Positions 20,029 to 48,190 of a stretch of DNA of 57,539 nucleotides are shown piece by piece. Below the pieces are notes generated by a model. The model saw only the letters and a list, made by a program, of their open reading frames with translations, did not search any database and was not told the DNA's origin. The stretch comes from Terriglobia bacterium (GTDB taxonomy: Bacteria; Acidobacteriota; Terriglobia; 20CM-2-55-15). The translations under genes were made by a program, and so were the position numbers. The DNA lies in contig DASXLG010000136.1 in the NCBI GenBank assembly GCA_036496425.1, forward strand, positions 1 through 57,539, given 5' to 3'. Within the stretch, counting starts at the first letter, position 1. Every line of letters starts with the position of its first letter.

Positions 20029-23000
20029 ATGCGCTCTTCTGCGTCGACCTTAGGTCTAATTCTATTTTTGATGATCTGCCTCATGATGGCGGCGGCACCG
20101 TTGTCCTTTGGACAAGCTCAGTACGACACCGCGCCTCAAGCGCAAACGGGCGAACAGGTCTACGGCTCCTATTTCAAAAGCGAACTGGACAGCATCGGCA
20201 TTTTCAATGGGAACCTCAGTATGTCGATTTCTCTTTTTAGCCTGCCGGGGCGGGAAATCCCCATGAAGGTCGGCTTTACATACAACTCTCAAAAATGGGA
20301 AGCCCAGAGCTGTGACGATGGGGCTGGCCCTTACGATTGTGGTTACTATACTGGAGGATGGCAGCTGGACCTATCCCCCTACGGCCAAATGCCAACGCTT
20401 TATAACGGAAGCATCTATTGGATCGACGGTTCAGGAACGAAGAGGCGGTACTATTCTAACGGCACCATCTCCGATAATCAGAGCATTCCGAGCGCGGATT
20501 CCGATGGCACTGTGTTTTTCACAGGCACCTATTGGAGTACGGGCGATGGGAGCAGCGCATACATTTCGTTTCCTGATGGTAGTCGGCGCTATATGTCTGT
20601 GTTGCCGGCTTTCGCGACAGCAAATGGAAACACCATCTCCCCGCAAGTGAATGGTTGCAGTCAGATGTTTACCTGCGGTCTGCCGACTGAAGACACGCTG
20701 GGTCGGACAATTCAGACATCGAACGGCTCCAATTCGGTCCTCTACAAGATCACCGACTCGACCGGAACATTGCAAACCTATACTGTTGGGTATACTTTCC
20801 AAAACGATTGCGATCCGTTCTATGAGTACGTGTGGTGGTGGCCCACTTGGCAGGGTTGTTGGCACTATGTGTCGCACCAGAAGATTTCCTCGATCACACT
20901 GCCGAACGGTAAATCGTATCTGTTCGAATACGACAGTTCACACAACAATGGCCTAGGCTTCATGACCAAAGTCACGCTGCCGTCAGGTGCCTATATGCGG
21001 TACATCTATGCAGCGCCGCCGAGTGGCACGTGGCCCGCCTATTATGACGAAGTCGTGCAGCGTTTCGTCAGTCTTGACGGCACCCTGAACGGTGAAAAGA
21101 CGTGGTCGTACAGTGGGTATGCAGGTGCTGGTGGCGGCCCAACAGCTCGAACAGTTACAGTCACGAGTCCCGTAGGCGACAAGGTCGTTCATCAACTGAA
21201 CGCGCAAGGTCTGGAAACGCAAACCCAGTGGCAAACCTCGACGGGAACGACACTGAAGACGGTAACTTCTTCGTGGACCCAAGCTTCGGTTTTGTCCAAC
21301 GGGCAGCCGCAAAATCCGCAGGTCAACACAATTACGACGATTCTCGACGGAGGCGAGGCATCGCAGCAGACTCTGACGTACGACGCGAATATGAATGTCA
21401 CGCAAGAGAAAGTGACCGACTGGCAATGGGCTGCGACAGGTCCTGCAACCATCGCGGAAAAGGATGTCACCTATACGACAATTGCTGTTCCAAATGTAAC
21501 GAATGTCACTCGGAAGTCCTCGGAAATCTTAACGGCTATCGATCCGGCGACGGGAAATTTCGTGCAGCAAGGCCGGACGGATTACGCCTATGACGAGTAC
21601 TCTTTTATGTATACGCGTTCTGGTGTACCAAGCAGTACTCCTCCTTCAAGCTCATCAAATCTGGGCAATCTCACCACCACTAAACGGTACAAAGACGCAT
21701 CGAACTTCGTATCGGAGCACAGGCACTACGACAATCTCGGTAACGTTGTCCAAAAAACCGATGCGCTCAACAATACGGTCAATATCGATTTCACCGACAA
21801 TTTCTGTACCCTCAACGGGGCCGGCATGTGCACAAACACCAGTGGTCACTCTACATACGCTTTTCCGACCCAGATCGCAAATCCTCTAGGGCAATCGGCC
21901 TCGACCAAGTTCGACTACAACACAGGCTTGCCAGCGGTCGCTATCGATGCGCGTTTGAACTCGACCCAAACGAAATACGATCTGATGAACCGTGTCACTT
22001 CGGTCACTGAACCCAATAGCAAAGTCACCAGTTACAGCTATGACGATACGAACCGAATCACAACGAAAACGGTGACAGTCGATTCCAGCCCGAATCCCGG
22101 TGTGGTTCAGACTTACTTCGATCAATTCTATCGAGTCACAGAAACGCGTACCAACGACCCGGAAGGTCAAATCGCAGTTGATACCGTCTACGATGATAAG
22201 GGGCGGAAGACCCAGGTCAGTAACCCGTACCGCTTTGGCAGCGAGACACCGACGTGGACAACAACGATGTACGACGAACTCGATCGCCCTAAACAAATCC
22301 AAGCGCCTGACAGCTCAAGTAAAGGATACGTATACACAAATGCTCAGACGACCGTGACTGATGAAGCTGGTAATCAAAGGCGATACACCCACAACGCATT
22401 CGGTAAGTTGACCATGGTCGAGGAGCCAAACCCATTGCTCGCTACGCCCCTAATAACGACATACTCATACTACGTGTCTGGGGAGCTTTACCAGTCCGCC
22501 CAGTCTGGCCAAACTCGGACGTTTGTTAGTAATTGGCTGGGTCAGATCACGAGCCAAACATTCCCAGAGTCGGGAACGACAACCTTTGTCTATGATGCTG
22601 ACGGTAATATGAGTTCAAAGACCGATGCGCGACCGATGTCCGTGATTTACTGTTATGATTCCCTCAGGCGATTGACAGCTAAAATGTACTCGGGTTCGTG
22701 TGGCAGCCCTGGTGCGGGACTGGTGACAATCGGGTATGACGCCGGTATTTATGCCGGCTTGAAGACATCGATGACCGATAGTATCGGCACTCTGAATTAC
22801 GACTACGACTCCATGAGTCGTCTTACCCTGGAAACTCGCACGATCACCGGCGTTAGCGGGACATTTACGACAGGCTATGGCTACAATCTTAAGGGCGACA
22901 TCACCTCGATGACGTACCCGAGTGGTCGCGTTGTTAATTTCACTTACGCCACGGGCAACGGATGTTGCAACTCGCGTTTGGCATCGGTCGTGGATCAGAC

Positions 23001-24675
23001 AAGCAGCACGACGGTCAATAGCACGATGAATTACGATGCCGGCGGCGACCCGCTGAACAGCACGCTTGGTAATGGTATCGTGCTAAGCTATGTATACAAT
23101 AATCGTCGGCAGGAAATGTCCATCCGTGCTGCGCTGAGCGGAATGTCCTTGATGGATTTCAGCTACAACTACGGTTCGAGCAGTACGGACACCGGGAGGG
23201 TGCTCTCGCGCACCGATGCTATTCAGCCTGAACACACCGCCAGCTATTCCTACGATTCGGTCTACCGTTTAGCGGCCGTTGCATCTGGTGATTCGACAAC
23301 GAGTTGGGGCATCGCTTGGACCTTCGATGTGTGGGGCAACCGGGTGGCACAGACACCACTGGGGATTGTCGCTTCCAACATCGGTAGCCAGACCATGGGC
23401 TACACCAACAATCGGAATAATTCCAATACTTACGATTCGGCGGGCAATCAGACCAATGACGGGCTGCACAATTACACGTTTAATGCCGAGAATCAGATTG
23501 TTTCGATGGATGCGGGCGCAGCGACTTATGCGTATGATGGAGACGGCAATCGCATGAAGAAAGTGACATCTTCGGAGACGACCTACACGTTTTACGGACG
23601 AGGTGGGATCATATCCGAATTCACAACCTCCAACACAATTGCCACCAAAACGCAGGCGTCCACAACGGGAACGGATGTGTATTTTTATCACACCGCAGAC
23701 AGGCTCGAATCGGCAGTGTTGGTGACGACCGCAAATGGGACGATAATCGAAAACAATCGCACTCTACCGTTTGGTGAAGCATGGTCGTCAACGGACAATG
23801 GGCAGCCTTCGACCAACGATAAGAAGTTCACAACTTACACGAGAGACGAAGAATCTGGACTCGACTATGCCGGCAACCGTTACATGGCAAATAACTACGG
23901 GCGCTTCCAGAGCCCCGACCAGGGTAAACCGCACTTTTACATGCCTTCGTCCTTAAACCGATACATATATACCGCTGACGATCCAATTAATTTTAGGGAT
24001 CGGACCGGGAAAGACATTTGTGACGATTCGTGGGACTTCGACCTATGCGATGATGACGGCGGGAACGGAGATGACCCCTATGCCACCGCGACTCTAGGGT
24101 TCACTGGCGCCCCGGACCCAGGAGATCCCTGCTTTCGTAACCTTTTTAATTCCAGCTACTTGTTTATCTGCGTGGCCGGGGAAACTGGTTCGTTCGCAAT
24201 TGCAGCACTACTAATTGATAATAGTGTAGGGCCTTGTCCGCTAGAGAGGCCTGCAGGACATTTTACAGTTAATCCGAACAGTGCGACACCGATACATGCG
24301 ATCTTCGCCCCCTTGATGGCGGCAGTCTTGTCGCAGGTATTCGAATATTTGAATAACGAAGGAATTGTCCCGATGATAACCGCCGGATATAGAGACCCAG
24401 TCCTTAACGCGCGGGAAGGTGGCTCAAATAATCCGTTGCACCCATCGTGGCACCTTGCCGGCATGGCGATTGATGTCAATCAAAAGGATCCTAACTTTGC
24501 GGAGATCAAGAGAGTGATGCAACTAGCGGGATTGGTCTGGGGAGGGGCCTATTCGAAGATAGAGGATCATCACTTCCAGCTACCCAATTGGGGTACGGGG
24601 CCGTCTCAATACCAGATTCAGGCTTGCGCAGACCAGAACTCCAACGCTGCAGATGACAGGGGCAAAACATTTTGA
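20029..24675 (+). CDS. RHS/YD-repeat protein with C-terminal M15-type peptidase domain
   Basis: A 1548-residue exported protein with a signal peptide (LILFLMICLMMAAAPLSFGQ). YD/RHS repeats fill most of its length (YDLMNRVTSVTEPNSKVTSY, YDSMSRLTLETRTITG, YDGDGNRMKKVTSSETTY) and build a hollow shell. The RHS core ends near residue 1330 (YAGNRYMANNYGRFQSPD then DPINFRDRTGKD). The variable tip, about 1330-1548, carries Ser1473-Trp-His1475-Leu-Ala-Gly1478-x-Ala1480-x-Asp1482. It then has Glu1512-Asp-His1514-His1515-Phe-Gln. This is the zinc-binding pattern of M15 D-Ala-D-Ala/L-Ala-D-Glu peptidases. The tip would cut peptidoglycan, as in polymorphic toxins. No VgrG or secretion genes are near. Confidence 0.8.
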   Translation: MRSSASTLGLILFLMICLMMAAAPLSFGQAQYDTAPQAQTGEQVYGSYFKSELDSIGIFNGNLSMSISLFSLPGREIPMKVGFTYNSQKWEAQSCDDGAGPYDCGYYTGGWQLDLSPYGQMPTLYNGSIYWIDGSGTKRRYYSNGTISDNQSIPSADSDGTVFFTGTYWSTGDGSSAYISFPDGSRRYMSVLPAFATANGNTISPQVNGCSQMFTCGLPTEDTLGRTIQTSNGSNSVLYKITDSTGTLQTYTVGYTFQNDCDPFYEYVWWWPTWQGCWHYVSHQKISSITLPNGKSYLFEYDSSHNNGLGFMTKVTLPSGAYMRYIYAAPPSGTWPAYYDEVVQRFVSLDGTLNGEKTWSYSGYAGAGGGPTARTVTVTSPVGDKVVHQLNAQGLETQTQWQTSTGTTLKTVTSSWTQASVLSNGQPQNPQVNTITTILDGGEASQQTLTYDANMNVTQEKVTDWQWAATGPATIAEKDVTYTTIAVPNVTNVTRKSSEILTAIDPATGNFVQQGRTDYAYDEYSFMYTRSGVPSSTPPSSSSNLGNLTTTKRYKDASNFVSEHRHYDNLGNVVQKTDALNNTVNIDFTDNFCTLNGAGMCTNTSGHSTYAFPTQIANPLGQSASTKFDYNTGLPAVAIDARLNSTQTKYDLMNRVTSVTEPNSKVTSYSYDDTNRITTKTVTVDSSPNPGVVQTYFDQFYRVTETRTNDPEGQIAVDTVYDDKGRKTQVSNPYRFGSETPTWTTTMYDELDRPKQIQAPDSSSKGYVYTNAQTTVTDEAGNQRRYTHNAFGKLTMVEEPNPLLATPLITTYSYYVSGELYQSAQSGQTRTFVSNWLGQITSQTFPESGTTTFVYDADGNMSSKTDARPMSVIYCYDSLRRLTAKMYSGSCGSPGAGLVTIGYDAGIYAGLKTSMTDSIGTLNYDYDSMSRLTLETRTITGVSGTFTTGYGYNLKGDITSMTYPSGRVVNFTYATGNGCCNSRLASVVDQTSSTTVNSTMNYDAGGDPLNSTLGNGIVLSYVYNNRRQEMSIRAALSGMSLMDFSYNYGSSSTDTGRVLSRTDAIQPEHTASYSYDSVYRLAAVASGDSTTSWGIAWTFDVWGNRVAQTPLGIVASNIGSQTMGYTNNRNNSNTYDSAGNQTNDGLHNYTFNAENQIVSMDAGAATYAYDGDGNRMKKVTSSETTYTFYGRGGIISEFTTSNTIATKTQASTTGTDVYFYHTADRLESAVLVTTANGTIIENNRTLPFGEAWSSTDNGQPSTNDKKFTTYTRDEESGLDYAGNRYMANNYGRFQSPDQGKPHFYMPSSLNRYIYTADDPINFRDRTGKDICDDSWDFDLCDDDGGNGDDPYATATLGFTGAPDPGDPCFRNLFNSSYLFICVAGETGSFAIAALLIDNSVGPCPLERPAGHFTVNPNSATPIHAIFAPLMAAVLSQVFEYLNNEGIVPMITAGYRDPVLNAREGGSNNPLHPSWHLAGMAIDVNQKDPNFAEIKRVMQLAGLVWGGAYSKIEDHHFQLPNWGTGPSQYQIQACADQNSNAADDRGKTF

Positions 24676-25485: not shown

Positions 25486-25596
25486 GAGAATTGAAAATTG
25501 ATTAGTGACCAGTGACCATTGTTCCCGGAAAGTCGGCAAATCGGCCGATTTTGACAACGACAACTCTCAGTACTCATTAATAAATTTTCAATTCTC
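25486..25596. repeat. 14-bp inverted repeats flanking short direct repeats
   Basis: GAGAATTGAAAATT at 25486-25499 is exactly complementary to AATTTTCAATTCTC at 25583-25596. Between them the heptamer GTGACCA/GTGACC occurs twice (about 25505-25518). The right arm contains the stop codon of the four-helix-bundle gene. Strings of this kind are common in intergenic repeats of many bacteria. Here the arms could be the ends of a small mobile cassette or a two-way terminator. Confidence 0.6.
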
Positions 25597-26001
25597 AACC
25601 GGCCCGTCCTTTGCCTTTGGTCTCATCGGGTTTGCCGAGCTGTTTCTTCTCGCCGTCTTAACCGACGCGACGAGAATCCTGCACAACTCCGTATTCTCCG
25701 CGACTAATCGCCTCACAAAATCCGAATTAACCGCGACACTTGCTTGAAGGATTTTCAGCCAGATCGCCGTTTCGTTCAGCTCTTTGATGCAAATTTTGAG
25801 TTTGTGAATAAAATCCGCCCGGCTTTCTGCCGCCCGAGCTTCCCCATAATTGGTCGCGGCCGCCGTCCCTGACCGCAGAATCTGATTTCCTATATGCTTA
25901 GCCTTTGCGTTTTGCGGCAACTGCCCAGTGAGTCTCACGATATCCACCGCGAACCGAACAAGACGATCTTTCAACGTGTTGGCTGTGAGGTTCGACGCCA
26001 T
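25588..26001 (-). CDS. Four-helix-bundle protein (S23/bAvd type)
   Basis: A 137-residue all-helical protein starting MASNLTANTLKDRLVRFAVD. It has the family landmarks IGNQILRSGTAAATNYGEAR, RADFIHKLKICIKELNETA and WLKILQ. The family (TIGR02436, 23S rRNA intervening-sequence or four helix bundle protein) forms pentameric barrels related to Avd, the accessory protein of diversity-generating retroelements. The free-standing members have no agreed role. A longer open frame reaches 26301, but its first 100 residues are low-quality and run into the repeat array. No reverse transcriptase is visible nearby. The hairpin array begins roughly 190 bases upstream of its start. Confidence 0.8.
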   Translation of the reverse strand: MASNLTANTLKDRLVRFAVDIVRLTGQLPQNAKAKHIGNQILRSGTAAATNYGEARAAESRADFIHKLKICIKELNETAIWLKILQASVAVNSDFVRRLVAENTELCRILVASVKTARRNSSANPMRPKAKDGPVEN

Positions 26002-26189
26002 GAGCTGCGGAGAGCACTTGTGGTGCCAGCCGAAACGGTCGGATGCTCTTTCGTGGACAAAATGATGATTCAGTACTGGTTTATCTGGCTTGTTGAGGTT
26101 TGCGCACACGGAACTGAGCGGATCCAACCTCGAAGCGATTTCGGTAAGCTCCTCATTGGAAGCCGGGACCGTCTCTGGCCCAGGTCGAA

Positions 26190-26921
26190 GCCTGCAAACA
26201 GGACAACGCCAACGCCCCAGATGACCGAGGCAAAAGACTCTAAGAAACCGCTCATCAGAGGTTTCTGGAATCCGGCAACGGATGCGGCGCATGGGCGTCA
26301 CGAATCTGCAATTGTTCGAACTATAAGACGCATCGGTCGGCCGAGCAGCATTTTGGAGGGCCGATGGGATGCACGGCCGCCATGAAGGTCAGATGGTTTC
26401 ACAGATAAGGCAGATCGGGCAAAAGATTGCGACTTCCGGGCGCCGATAAACCGCATGGCCGAAACGAATCCGAGATGGTTGAAACGATGGAGCACATCGT
26501 TTCAACCATCCAGGTTTCGGCGGCCCGATCAGGCAAATCATCCGGCCGAAACCCGGATTGTTCGAAGGATGAAGCCGATGGTTCGGCGGAACAGGATTTC
26601 GGCGCCCGGGGACGGCATATCGGGGCGCCGAAACTTTGATCGTGGAACGATGGGGCGGATCGTTCGGCCGGACCGGATTTCGTGGCGGACATGGGACGCA
26701 TCGGCGCGCCGAAACCGGGATTGGGCGAACAGTGAGCCGCATAGTTTGAACAAACCAGATTTTGGGACCCGGATCGAGCGCATCGCGGCTACGAAACCCG
26801 GATGATTCGAACGATGGGACGCATCCTTCGGCCGAACCGGATTTCGTTGTTTCGATATGCGCAGCATGGCGTCGAAACCGGAATCGGGGCGCCGATCCGT
26901 CTGATCGACGCCCCGATATGT
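26190..26921. repeat. Degenerate ~41-bp tandem array, each unit a hairpin with changing arms
   Basis: About 16-18 units of 36-47 bases, mostly 40 or 41, run head to tail. The unit is roughly GAAACCGGATT, a variable arm, GATGGGACGCATC, then the complementary arm ending GGCC. Examples: a perfect 16-bp stem with 5-base loop at 26474-26510, GAACGAT/ATCGTTC at 26645-26665, and CGAACGATG/CATCCTTCG at 26808-26830. Other units use GGCGCCC/GGGCGCC or GGGGCG/CGCCCC arms. Arms differ between units yet keep pairing, while the spacer stays similar. A 41-base unit is not a multiple of three and open frames do not persist, so this is unlikely to encode protein. It lies between the four-helix-bundle gene and the next Fn3-domain gene. 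No cas genes and no constant-repeat/unique-spacer pattern are present, so it is not CRISPR. Confidence 0.75.
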
Positions 26922-26976: not shown

Positions 26977-27118
26977 AAATCCAACTCCTCCCTCGTCGTC
27001 CGTTTCCTAACCTGTTGAAATATTGTGTTCGGTTCTGTTCGGATCTTTTGGCAGCGAAACTGCCACTATATGTGCGGCTCGCGAATGCGGGCTAAATTCA
27101 ACATTCAAAGGAGAACGT

Positions 27119-27757
27119 ATGACAGAGAAAATGAAGAAGATCAAACCTGCCGAGGACTATGGCTCCATGAAAGACGCGGATGTCCAGACGCTCGGCGAAA
27201 CGGTGGCGGCGAATTTGACGAACAACTCGAGTTTGCCCGCTCCGACCGTCGATCCGAAAGTGCTCAAGGCTGACGCCGATAACTTCGGCGCGGCTATTGT
27301 TGCGGCCCAGGACGGCGGGAAGAAGGCCGTTGCTCAGAAGAATAAGGCCCGAAAGGTCGTCGTGAAAGACCTGCGGCTGATCGGGCGCTATGTCGAGGAG
27401 ATCGCTGATGGCGACATGGCGATCTTTTCGTCCAGCGGCCTGACTCCGACTTCGGGCGTCCGAACGCTCCAAGTCGTCTTGTCCTCGAATTTCCGCAGTG
27501 TCGATCACGGCAAGCTTAGCGGACAAATCGTAATTCGGCTGAAAGCCATTTCAGGCGCGCTGAGTTATGAACTCCGTTTCGCCCCGGAGACAAACGGAGC
27601 GCCGGGGACATGGACTAGCCAGATCGTGACGGGCGTGAAAACGCCGGTGACGTTATCCAGTCTGACGCCAGGCACGGTTTACGCGTTTCAGGCGCGTGCC
27701 ATGGACAAGGCCGGATATTCCGACTGGAGCAACTCCGTCACAATGATGTGCACGTAG
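27119..27757 (+). CDS. Fn3-domain protein of a conserved ~210-residue family
   Basis: A 212-residue protein starting MTEKMKKIKPAEDYGSMKDA after a good ribosome site (AAAGGAGAACGT). Residues 1-120 are helical (VQTLGETVAANLTNN, DNFGAAIVAAQDGGKKAVAQ, RKVVVKDLRLIGRYVEEIAD). Residues about 130-212 are a fibronectin type III domain (VIRLKAISGALSYELRF, PVTLSSLTPGTVYAFQARAM, DKAGYSDWSNSV). No signal peptide is evident. I know similar helical-plus-Fn3 proteins from Acidobacteriota and Bacteroidota, all of unknown function. A rho-independent terminator follows directly, so it is a single-gene unit, possibly controlled by the half-site cluster upstream. Confidence 0.7.
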   Translation: MTEKMKKIKPAEDYGSMKDADVQTLGETVAANLTNNSSLPAPTVDPKVLKADADNFGAAIVAAQDGGKKAVAQKNKARKVVVKDLRLIGRYVEEIADGDMAIFSSSGLTPTSGVRTLQVVLSSNFRSVDHGKLSGQIVIRLKAISGALSYELRFAPETNGAPGTWTSQIVTGVKTPVTLSSLTPGTVYAFQARAMDKAGYSDWSNSVTMMCT

Positions 27758-48139: not shown

Positions 48140-48190
48140 TGTGAGCGACCCCCTGCCGGCCGCTTCGCGGCCGGCAGGGGGTCGCTCACA
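48140..48190. repeat. Perfect 24-bp-stem hairpin between hisB and hisH
   Basis: TGTGAGCGACCCCCTGCCGG followed by CCGC (48140-48163) pairs without mismatch to its complement at 48167-48190 across the loop TTC. It fills half of the 100-base gap between hisB and hisH. There is no T-run on either strand, so it is not a standard intrinsic terminator. A GC-rich mobile palindrome (REP/RAYT-type) or an mRNA-processing stem are the main options. Confidence 0.85.

Follow-up and report, generated by a model that had tools for sequence, protein, structure and literature searches.

The window analysed here is a stretch of 57,539 nucleotides from a Terriglobia bacterium in which a tandem array of short palindromes lies between two genes. 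One of them, called here the fn3 gene after the fibronectin type III domain predicted in its product, follows the array, while the other is predicted to encode a four-helix bundle. The features of the locus are as follows.

25588-26301 (open reading frame; probable start 26001): four-helix-bundle gene (PF05635, TIGR02436; 23S rRNA-intervening-sequence / Avd-like), on the other side of the array from the fn3 gene
26261-26920, no strand assigned: tandem array, 8 units of 81-82 bp, equal to about 16 imperfect half-units of ~41 bp
26474-26510, no strand assigned: most perfect palindrome of the array, with a 16-bp stem (26474-26489/26495-26510) and a 5-base centre
26883-26917, no strand assigned: a further strong palindrome, at the array end nearer the fn3 gene, ATCGGGGCGCCGATC/GATCGACGCCCCGAT
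27049-27063, + strand: sigma54-like -24/-12 site TGGCAGCGAAACTGC, a consensus match only (8 of 10 positions), 70 bp before the ATG
27119-27757, + strand: fn3 gene, for a protein of 212 aa with a helical bundle predicted at its N-terminus and a fibronectin type III domain at its C-terminus

The eight units of the array align with a mean column identity of 67%, and each is made of two halves of ~41 bp whose types are related but distinct. The identity at lag 82 reaches 0.575 over 200 bp, the top value for lags 12-139 across the whole 57.5-kb window. The best lags of the array (82, 245, 164, 41, 123, 205, 61, 102, 143, 184 and 21) and the spacing of its dyad centres, one per ~20.5 bp and per ~10.2 bp (range 10-10.5), fit a common step of about 20.4 bp. 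Tandem Repeats Finder did not detect the window array because its copies are too diverged. A first-pass annotation of the sequence had placed 16-18 hairpin units at 26190-26921: the tandem array and its perfect 16-bp stem are indeed present, and the unit count is about right for 26261-26920, but no recognisable unit occurs in 26190-26260. The same annotation held that the array does not encode a repeat protein, and no long open frame keeps step with its period. Two other features of the window may be recorded: a long Rhs/YD-repeat-type open reading frame at 20029-24675, left of the array, and a perfect GC-rich hairpin with a 24-bp stem at 48140-48190 (centre 48165, TGTGAGCGACCCCCTGCCGGCCGCTTCGCGGCCGGCAGGGGGTCGCTCACA).

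The fn3 gene is one of many and belongs to a large family of soil Acidobacteria. It has 53 tblastn matches in its own genome, that is, about 50 copies; the structure matches listed for its protein are fn3 domains, and the modelled protein is helical plus fn3. Within the sampled phylum, the family was found in genomes of the same genus and in one distant genome (G380), plus one weak match to the fn3 domain only. A scan of contigs with five fn3 paralogs returned congeners only, and no relative of the family was found in viral and plasmid collections. The distant genome has five members, four of them with arrays; since the family is absent from those of its congeners that were sampled, and its assembly is 5% contaminated, the family may have come there by transfer or may be a contaminant. 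A conserved leader-like element, GGAGAAGGTCCGGCCGCCCTTCTC ... CACGCGGCCGG, is found 150 bp before the fn3 ATG at several loci (C379, C203, C346, C261, G004:C71, G004:C29 and others); it has no Rfam match at the gathering threshold, and its consensus fold, from a quick alignment, is weak.

How often do arrays accompany these genes? With one fixed array definition applied to 80 fn3 genes from five congeneric genomes and the distant one, an array lies within 1 kb upstream of 48 genes and within 1 kb downstream of a single one. The genome of the window itself contributes 25 upstream arrays for 46 fn3 genes, and arrays with a period of 40-42 precede many fn3 copies both there and in congeners. The earlier suspicion that the position beside the fn3 gene matters was well founded. 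Searched by blastn, the window array has no convincing copy elsewhere; a covariance model of its units, a search that the first-pass annotation had suggested, finds arrays in the same genome at C362, C20, C308 and C15, and those at C362 and C20 are directly upstream of paralogs of the window gene. Away from intact fn3 genes, arrays occur at about 6 per Mb in a 995-kb (about 1.0-Mb) background sample of the genome, where some precede other genes and three sit at or near contig ends. A highly homogeneous family of 41-bp arrays, of the GGCTTACCGCGGGAGGTAAGGCAGAGA type, is found in this genome at or near three contig ends (C250:1-390, C143:121-600 and C265:18932-19131; loci L161, L271 and L274) and probably breaks the assembly. 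In the part of the literature that was covered, no description of such arrays was found.

The sequences of the arrays are mostly unrelated between loci, and what recurs is their geometry. When lags 12-139 were scanned without a period chosen beforehand, the high-identity lags upstream of fn3 genes fell at 20-21, 40-42, 60-63, 80-84, 100-105 and 120-126, with single ones at 127, 128 and 129; almost all of the strong ones are multiples of 20-21 bp, and the sole high-identity lag downstream is 18. As 20-21 bp corresponds to two turns of B-DNA, the constraint looks like one on DNA, not on RNA. The unit consensuses are also symmetric: circular dyad symmetry is significant (p < 0.05) in 37 of 55 arrays, and palindromy is not significant in the remaining 18. 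Of the 55, all but four stand immediately before an fn3 gene. Curved DNA was considered as well and rejected: A/T correlation around 10 bp is not positive in the arrays, which are therefore not simply curved.

Another point concerns the arms of the hairpins, which had been reported to change together from unit to unit. When ten arm positions were compared with their own partner and with the arms of other units, the arms of the window array matched their own partner at 5.1 of 10 positions, against 4.2 for all other units (p = 0.02), and against 4.6 when the other units were restricted to the same parity (p = 0.12); leaving out the hairpins at 26492 and 26900 raised the p value of the test to 0.66. 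Counted column by column in the 82-bp alignment, which mixes the two unit types, two-sided changes numbered 20 against 12.3 in shuffled alignments (0 of 500 as high), and RNAalifold found no structure in the 41-bp units. The signal inside the array is that of two good hairpins and two unit types, and co-variation of the arms within it is weak and not established. At a larger scale the idea survives in a different form, as other loci differ in array sequence and are again palindromic at the frequency given above. Of the two outcomes that the first-pass annotation had named as refuting, a lack of significant covariation among units holds for this array once unit type is allowed for, and a lack of homologous arrays in related genomes does not hold, since comparable arrays occur at dozens of loci, congeners included.

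The arrays have a history in common with the genes that they precede. Where two genes have similar arrays, their proteins are also more alike (219 v 123 bits, a value not reached in any of 5000 permutations), and the arrays follow the descent of the adjacent protein, a case of co-inheritance. At one pair of orthologous loci in two congeners (G004:C489 and G003:C185), the array and its flanks are kept, with the flanks 88% identical, and the array carries species-specific changes spread across its units. Because these changes are common to the units, the array at this locus evolves in concert. The substitutions between the two loci are few and mixed, and they form no clear compensatory pattern. 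The module at C68 has a truncated copy at C74, where the array stands without an fn3 gene.

Promoter-like sites lie between the array and the fn3 gene. Sites with at least 8 of the 10 sigma54 consensus positions precede 14 of 79 fn3 genes, against 2.5 expected from shuffles. In Fisher tests, which treat related loci as independent and involve small counts, arrays are associated with these sites (13 of the 14 genes, the window gene being among the 14; p = 0.006) and with a nearby enhancer-binding protein (9 of 10 loci; p = 0.04), and they are absent where a phage-type RNA polymerase is nearby (0 of 5 loci; p = 0.008). Still, 35 of the 48 array-bearing fn3 genes have no recognisable sigma54 box.

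Genes for transcription factors are enriched near the fn3 modules. The recurrent neighbours are FHA-AAA+ sigma54 activators, ECF sigma factors and phage-type RNA polymerases; one of each type was checked by Pfam, and the FHA-AAA+ protein has a sigma54 interaction domain. The 267 kb of fn3 loci in the genome of the window hold six matches to enhancer-binding proteins, five to ECF sigma factors and five to phage-type RNA polymerases, against four, four and none in the 995 kb of background, and enhancer-binding-protein genes lie near about ten modules, those at C307, C288 and C304 among them. In the window, no relative of any of these three queries was found. The phage-type single-subunit RNA polymerase genes are chromosomal (C138, C203 and C277, with fragments at C216 and C231; loci L130, L142 and L135). 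The fn3 genes that adjoin such genes have no arrays, and one of the polymerases was confirmed by Pfam (PF00940). A fragment of a group II intron is found near an fn3 locus (L119:1858-1972, - strand).

What, then, could the arrays be for? There is perhaps an even chance that they form a DNA-level control region, an enhancer or operator, of the adjacent fn3 gene, and that they do not act as RNA. Upstream of the promoter, each array would offer a row of palindromic candidate binding sites in helical register, with a dyad at every second turn (20-21 bp). These would be occupied, on a single face of the helix, by a dimeric or oligomeric regulator that either switches the promoter on or holds it off; at many loci it would probably be a sigma54 enhancer-binding protein. 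The genome would then contain dozens of modules in which array, promoter and fn3 gene were copied together and have since diverged, some of them with their own transcription factor alongside. Inside each module, unequal exchange or slippage would homogenise the array: the sequence would drift as a whole, without loss of period or symmetry. We infer the binding of a protein, its identity and its effect on the promoter from position, geometry and association, for which this is the simplest account. Against it, the promoter of the window matches the consensus at only 8 of 10 positions and no relative of the factor genes is found in the window. The many array-bearing genes with no sigma54 box, the 18 arrays without significant palindromy and the arrays away from intact fn3 genes speak against it as well. 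Moreover, the array sequences are so diverse that a single regulator could not read them all by sequence: many cognate regulators, or recognition of shape, would be needed.

The main rival is a non-adaptive one, somewhat improbable yet ahead of the other alternatives. Palindromes in long intergenic regions would expand by slippage and unequal exchange, become homogenised and ride along with the duplicated fn3 module, so that period and symmetry would stem from the mechanism of expansion and not from a function. Much of the history just described suits this explanation: the concerted evolution between orthologous loci, the similarity of arrays that follows the descent of the genes, the high divergence of the window array, and the arrays away from fn3 genes, including the truncated copy at C74. 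It accounts less well for a 40-42-bp period common to arrays of unrelated sequence, for a placement upstream but not downstream of the genes (48 v 1 of 80), or for an array presence that tracks the type of promoter, and we know of no reason why slippage should favour two helical turns.

It is unlikely that the arrays are dispersed mobile repeats of the REP/BIME or another type that gathered near fn3 genes by chance. Palindromic, intergenic and present at many loci, they resemble such elements; the GGCTTACCGCGGGAGGTAAGGCAGAGA-type family recurs at three contig ends, and one array has a Y1 transposase gene at a distance of about 2.2 kb. That gene, however, is the only one of its type in the genome and is not near the window, array sequences mostly differ by locus, and their location upstream of one gene family is fixed.

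Distinctly unlikely, too, is the structured RNA raised by the first-pass annotation, taken here as a chain of ~41-nt hairpins that binds or regulates the fn3 protein in the manner of the repeat RNA of a type III antitoxin. The layout of repeat array followed by gene would suit it, as would the strong hairpin that separates array from gene both in the window and at the two orthologous loci (G004:C489 and G003:C185). The window array also folds better than its shuffles, although it does so on both strands (z = -6.0 and -7.1), as expected of any palindromic DNA. The quantum of 20-21 bp fits B-DNA and not RNA; among palindrome mismatches, the excess of G-U over A-C is not significant (209 v 172, p = 0.065; 18 v 13 arrays); promoter-like sites separate array and gene; and the model of the fn3 protein shows a helical bundle and an fn3 domain, not an endoribonuclease fold. 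The Rfam search gave nothing above threshold except an unrelated tRNA and a group II intron.

Least probable of these alternatives is a chromosome-architecture or centromere-like role, with a partition or nucleoid protein bound and the fn3 association secondary: the tandem ~41-bp palindromes resemble known centromere repeats and a few arrays do lie away from fn3 genes, but there are dozens of loci with differing sequences, an upstream placement and a link to promoter type. A CRISPR array is rejected, as the units are contiguous, about 67% identical and without spacers; here, as for REP elements and retrons, the first-pass annotation had already seen no match.

The control-region reading can be taken one step further, tentatively and with less than even confidence. 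The genus may possess a set of dozens of self-contained switches, each an fn3 gene with a fast-evolving array of phased palindromes and several with their own transcription initiator (enhancer-binding protein, ECF sigma factor or phage-type RNA polymerase), in which selection would keep geometry and not sequence. If this is right, these arrays are a class of control element set by geometry instead of sequence and present dozens of times in one genome. Such natural replicates would let the rules of helical phasing, and the co-evolution of regulator and site, be read. An uncharacterised, lineage-restricted fn3 family would also be tied to several transcription systems, chromosomal phage-type RNA polymerases among them.

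The RNA, REP, CRISPR and Avd/DGR readings are all disfavoured. As for Avd-like (PF05635) proteins, one such gene flanks the window array, and the first-pass annotation saw a possible link in it; however, the genome has only two, the second is without an array, and the recurrent module does not include them. REP/BIME elements, which go with RAYT transposases, are intergenic palindromes of high copy number (PMC8266576, PMC3116915). The arrays share these traits but are tandem in register, unrelated between loci, fixed upstream of fn3 genes and accompanied by one Y1 gene in the genome.

In type III toxin-antitoxin systems (ToxIN), tandem repeats of about 36-42 nt precede a gene. Repeats precede a gene here too, but the product is helical plus fn3, promoter-like sites intervene, and the spacing is that of DNA turns. 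The plasmid centromere sopC of F consists of 12 copies of a 43-bp unit with inverted repeats, and iterons are 20-22 bp long; the arrays are alike in that their tandem units are palindromes about four helical turns long, or direct repeats that span about two. They differ in occupying dozens of chromosomal loci, with differing sequences, upstream of one gene family, and no Par or Rep gene was seen among the recurrent neighbours.

The last comparison is with the upstream activating sequences (UAS) of sigma54 promoters: dyad-symmetric, helically phased sites that lie upstream of -24/-12 promoters and are bound by NtrC-type enhancer-binding proteins. These usually number one to a few, whereas the arrays have 4-15 tandem copies, a sequence renewed at each locus and, at most loci, no recognised sigma54 box. 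The likeness lies in the sites themselves, which here too are dyad-symmetric and helically phased; enhancer-binding-protein genes are found near about ten of the modules, with no relative in the window.
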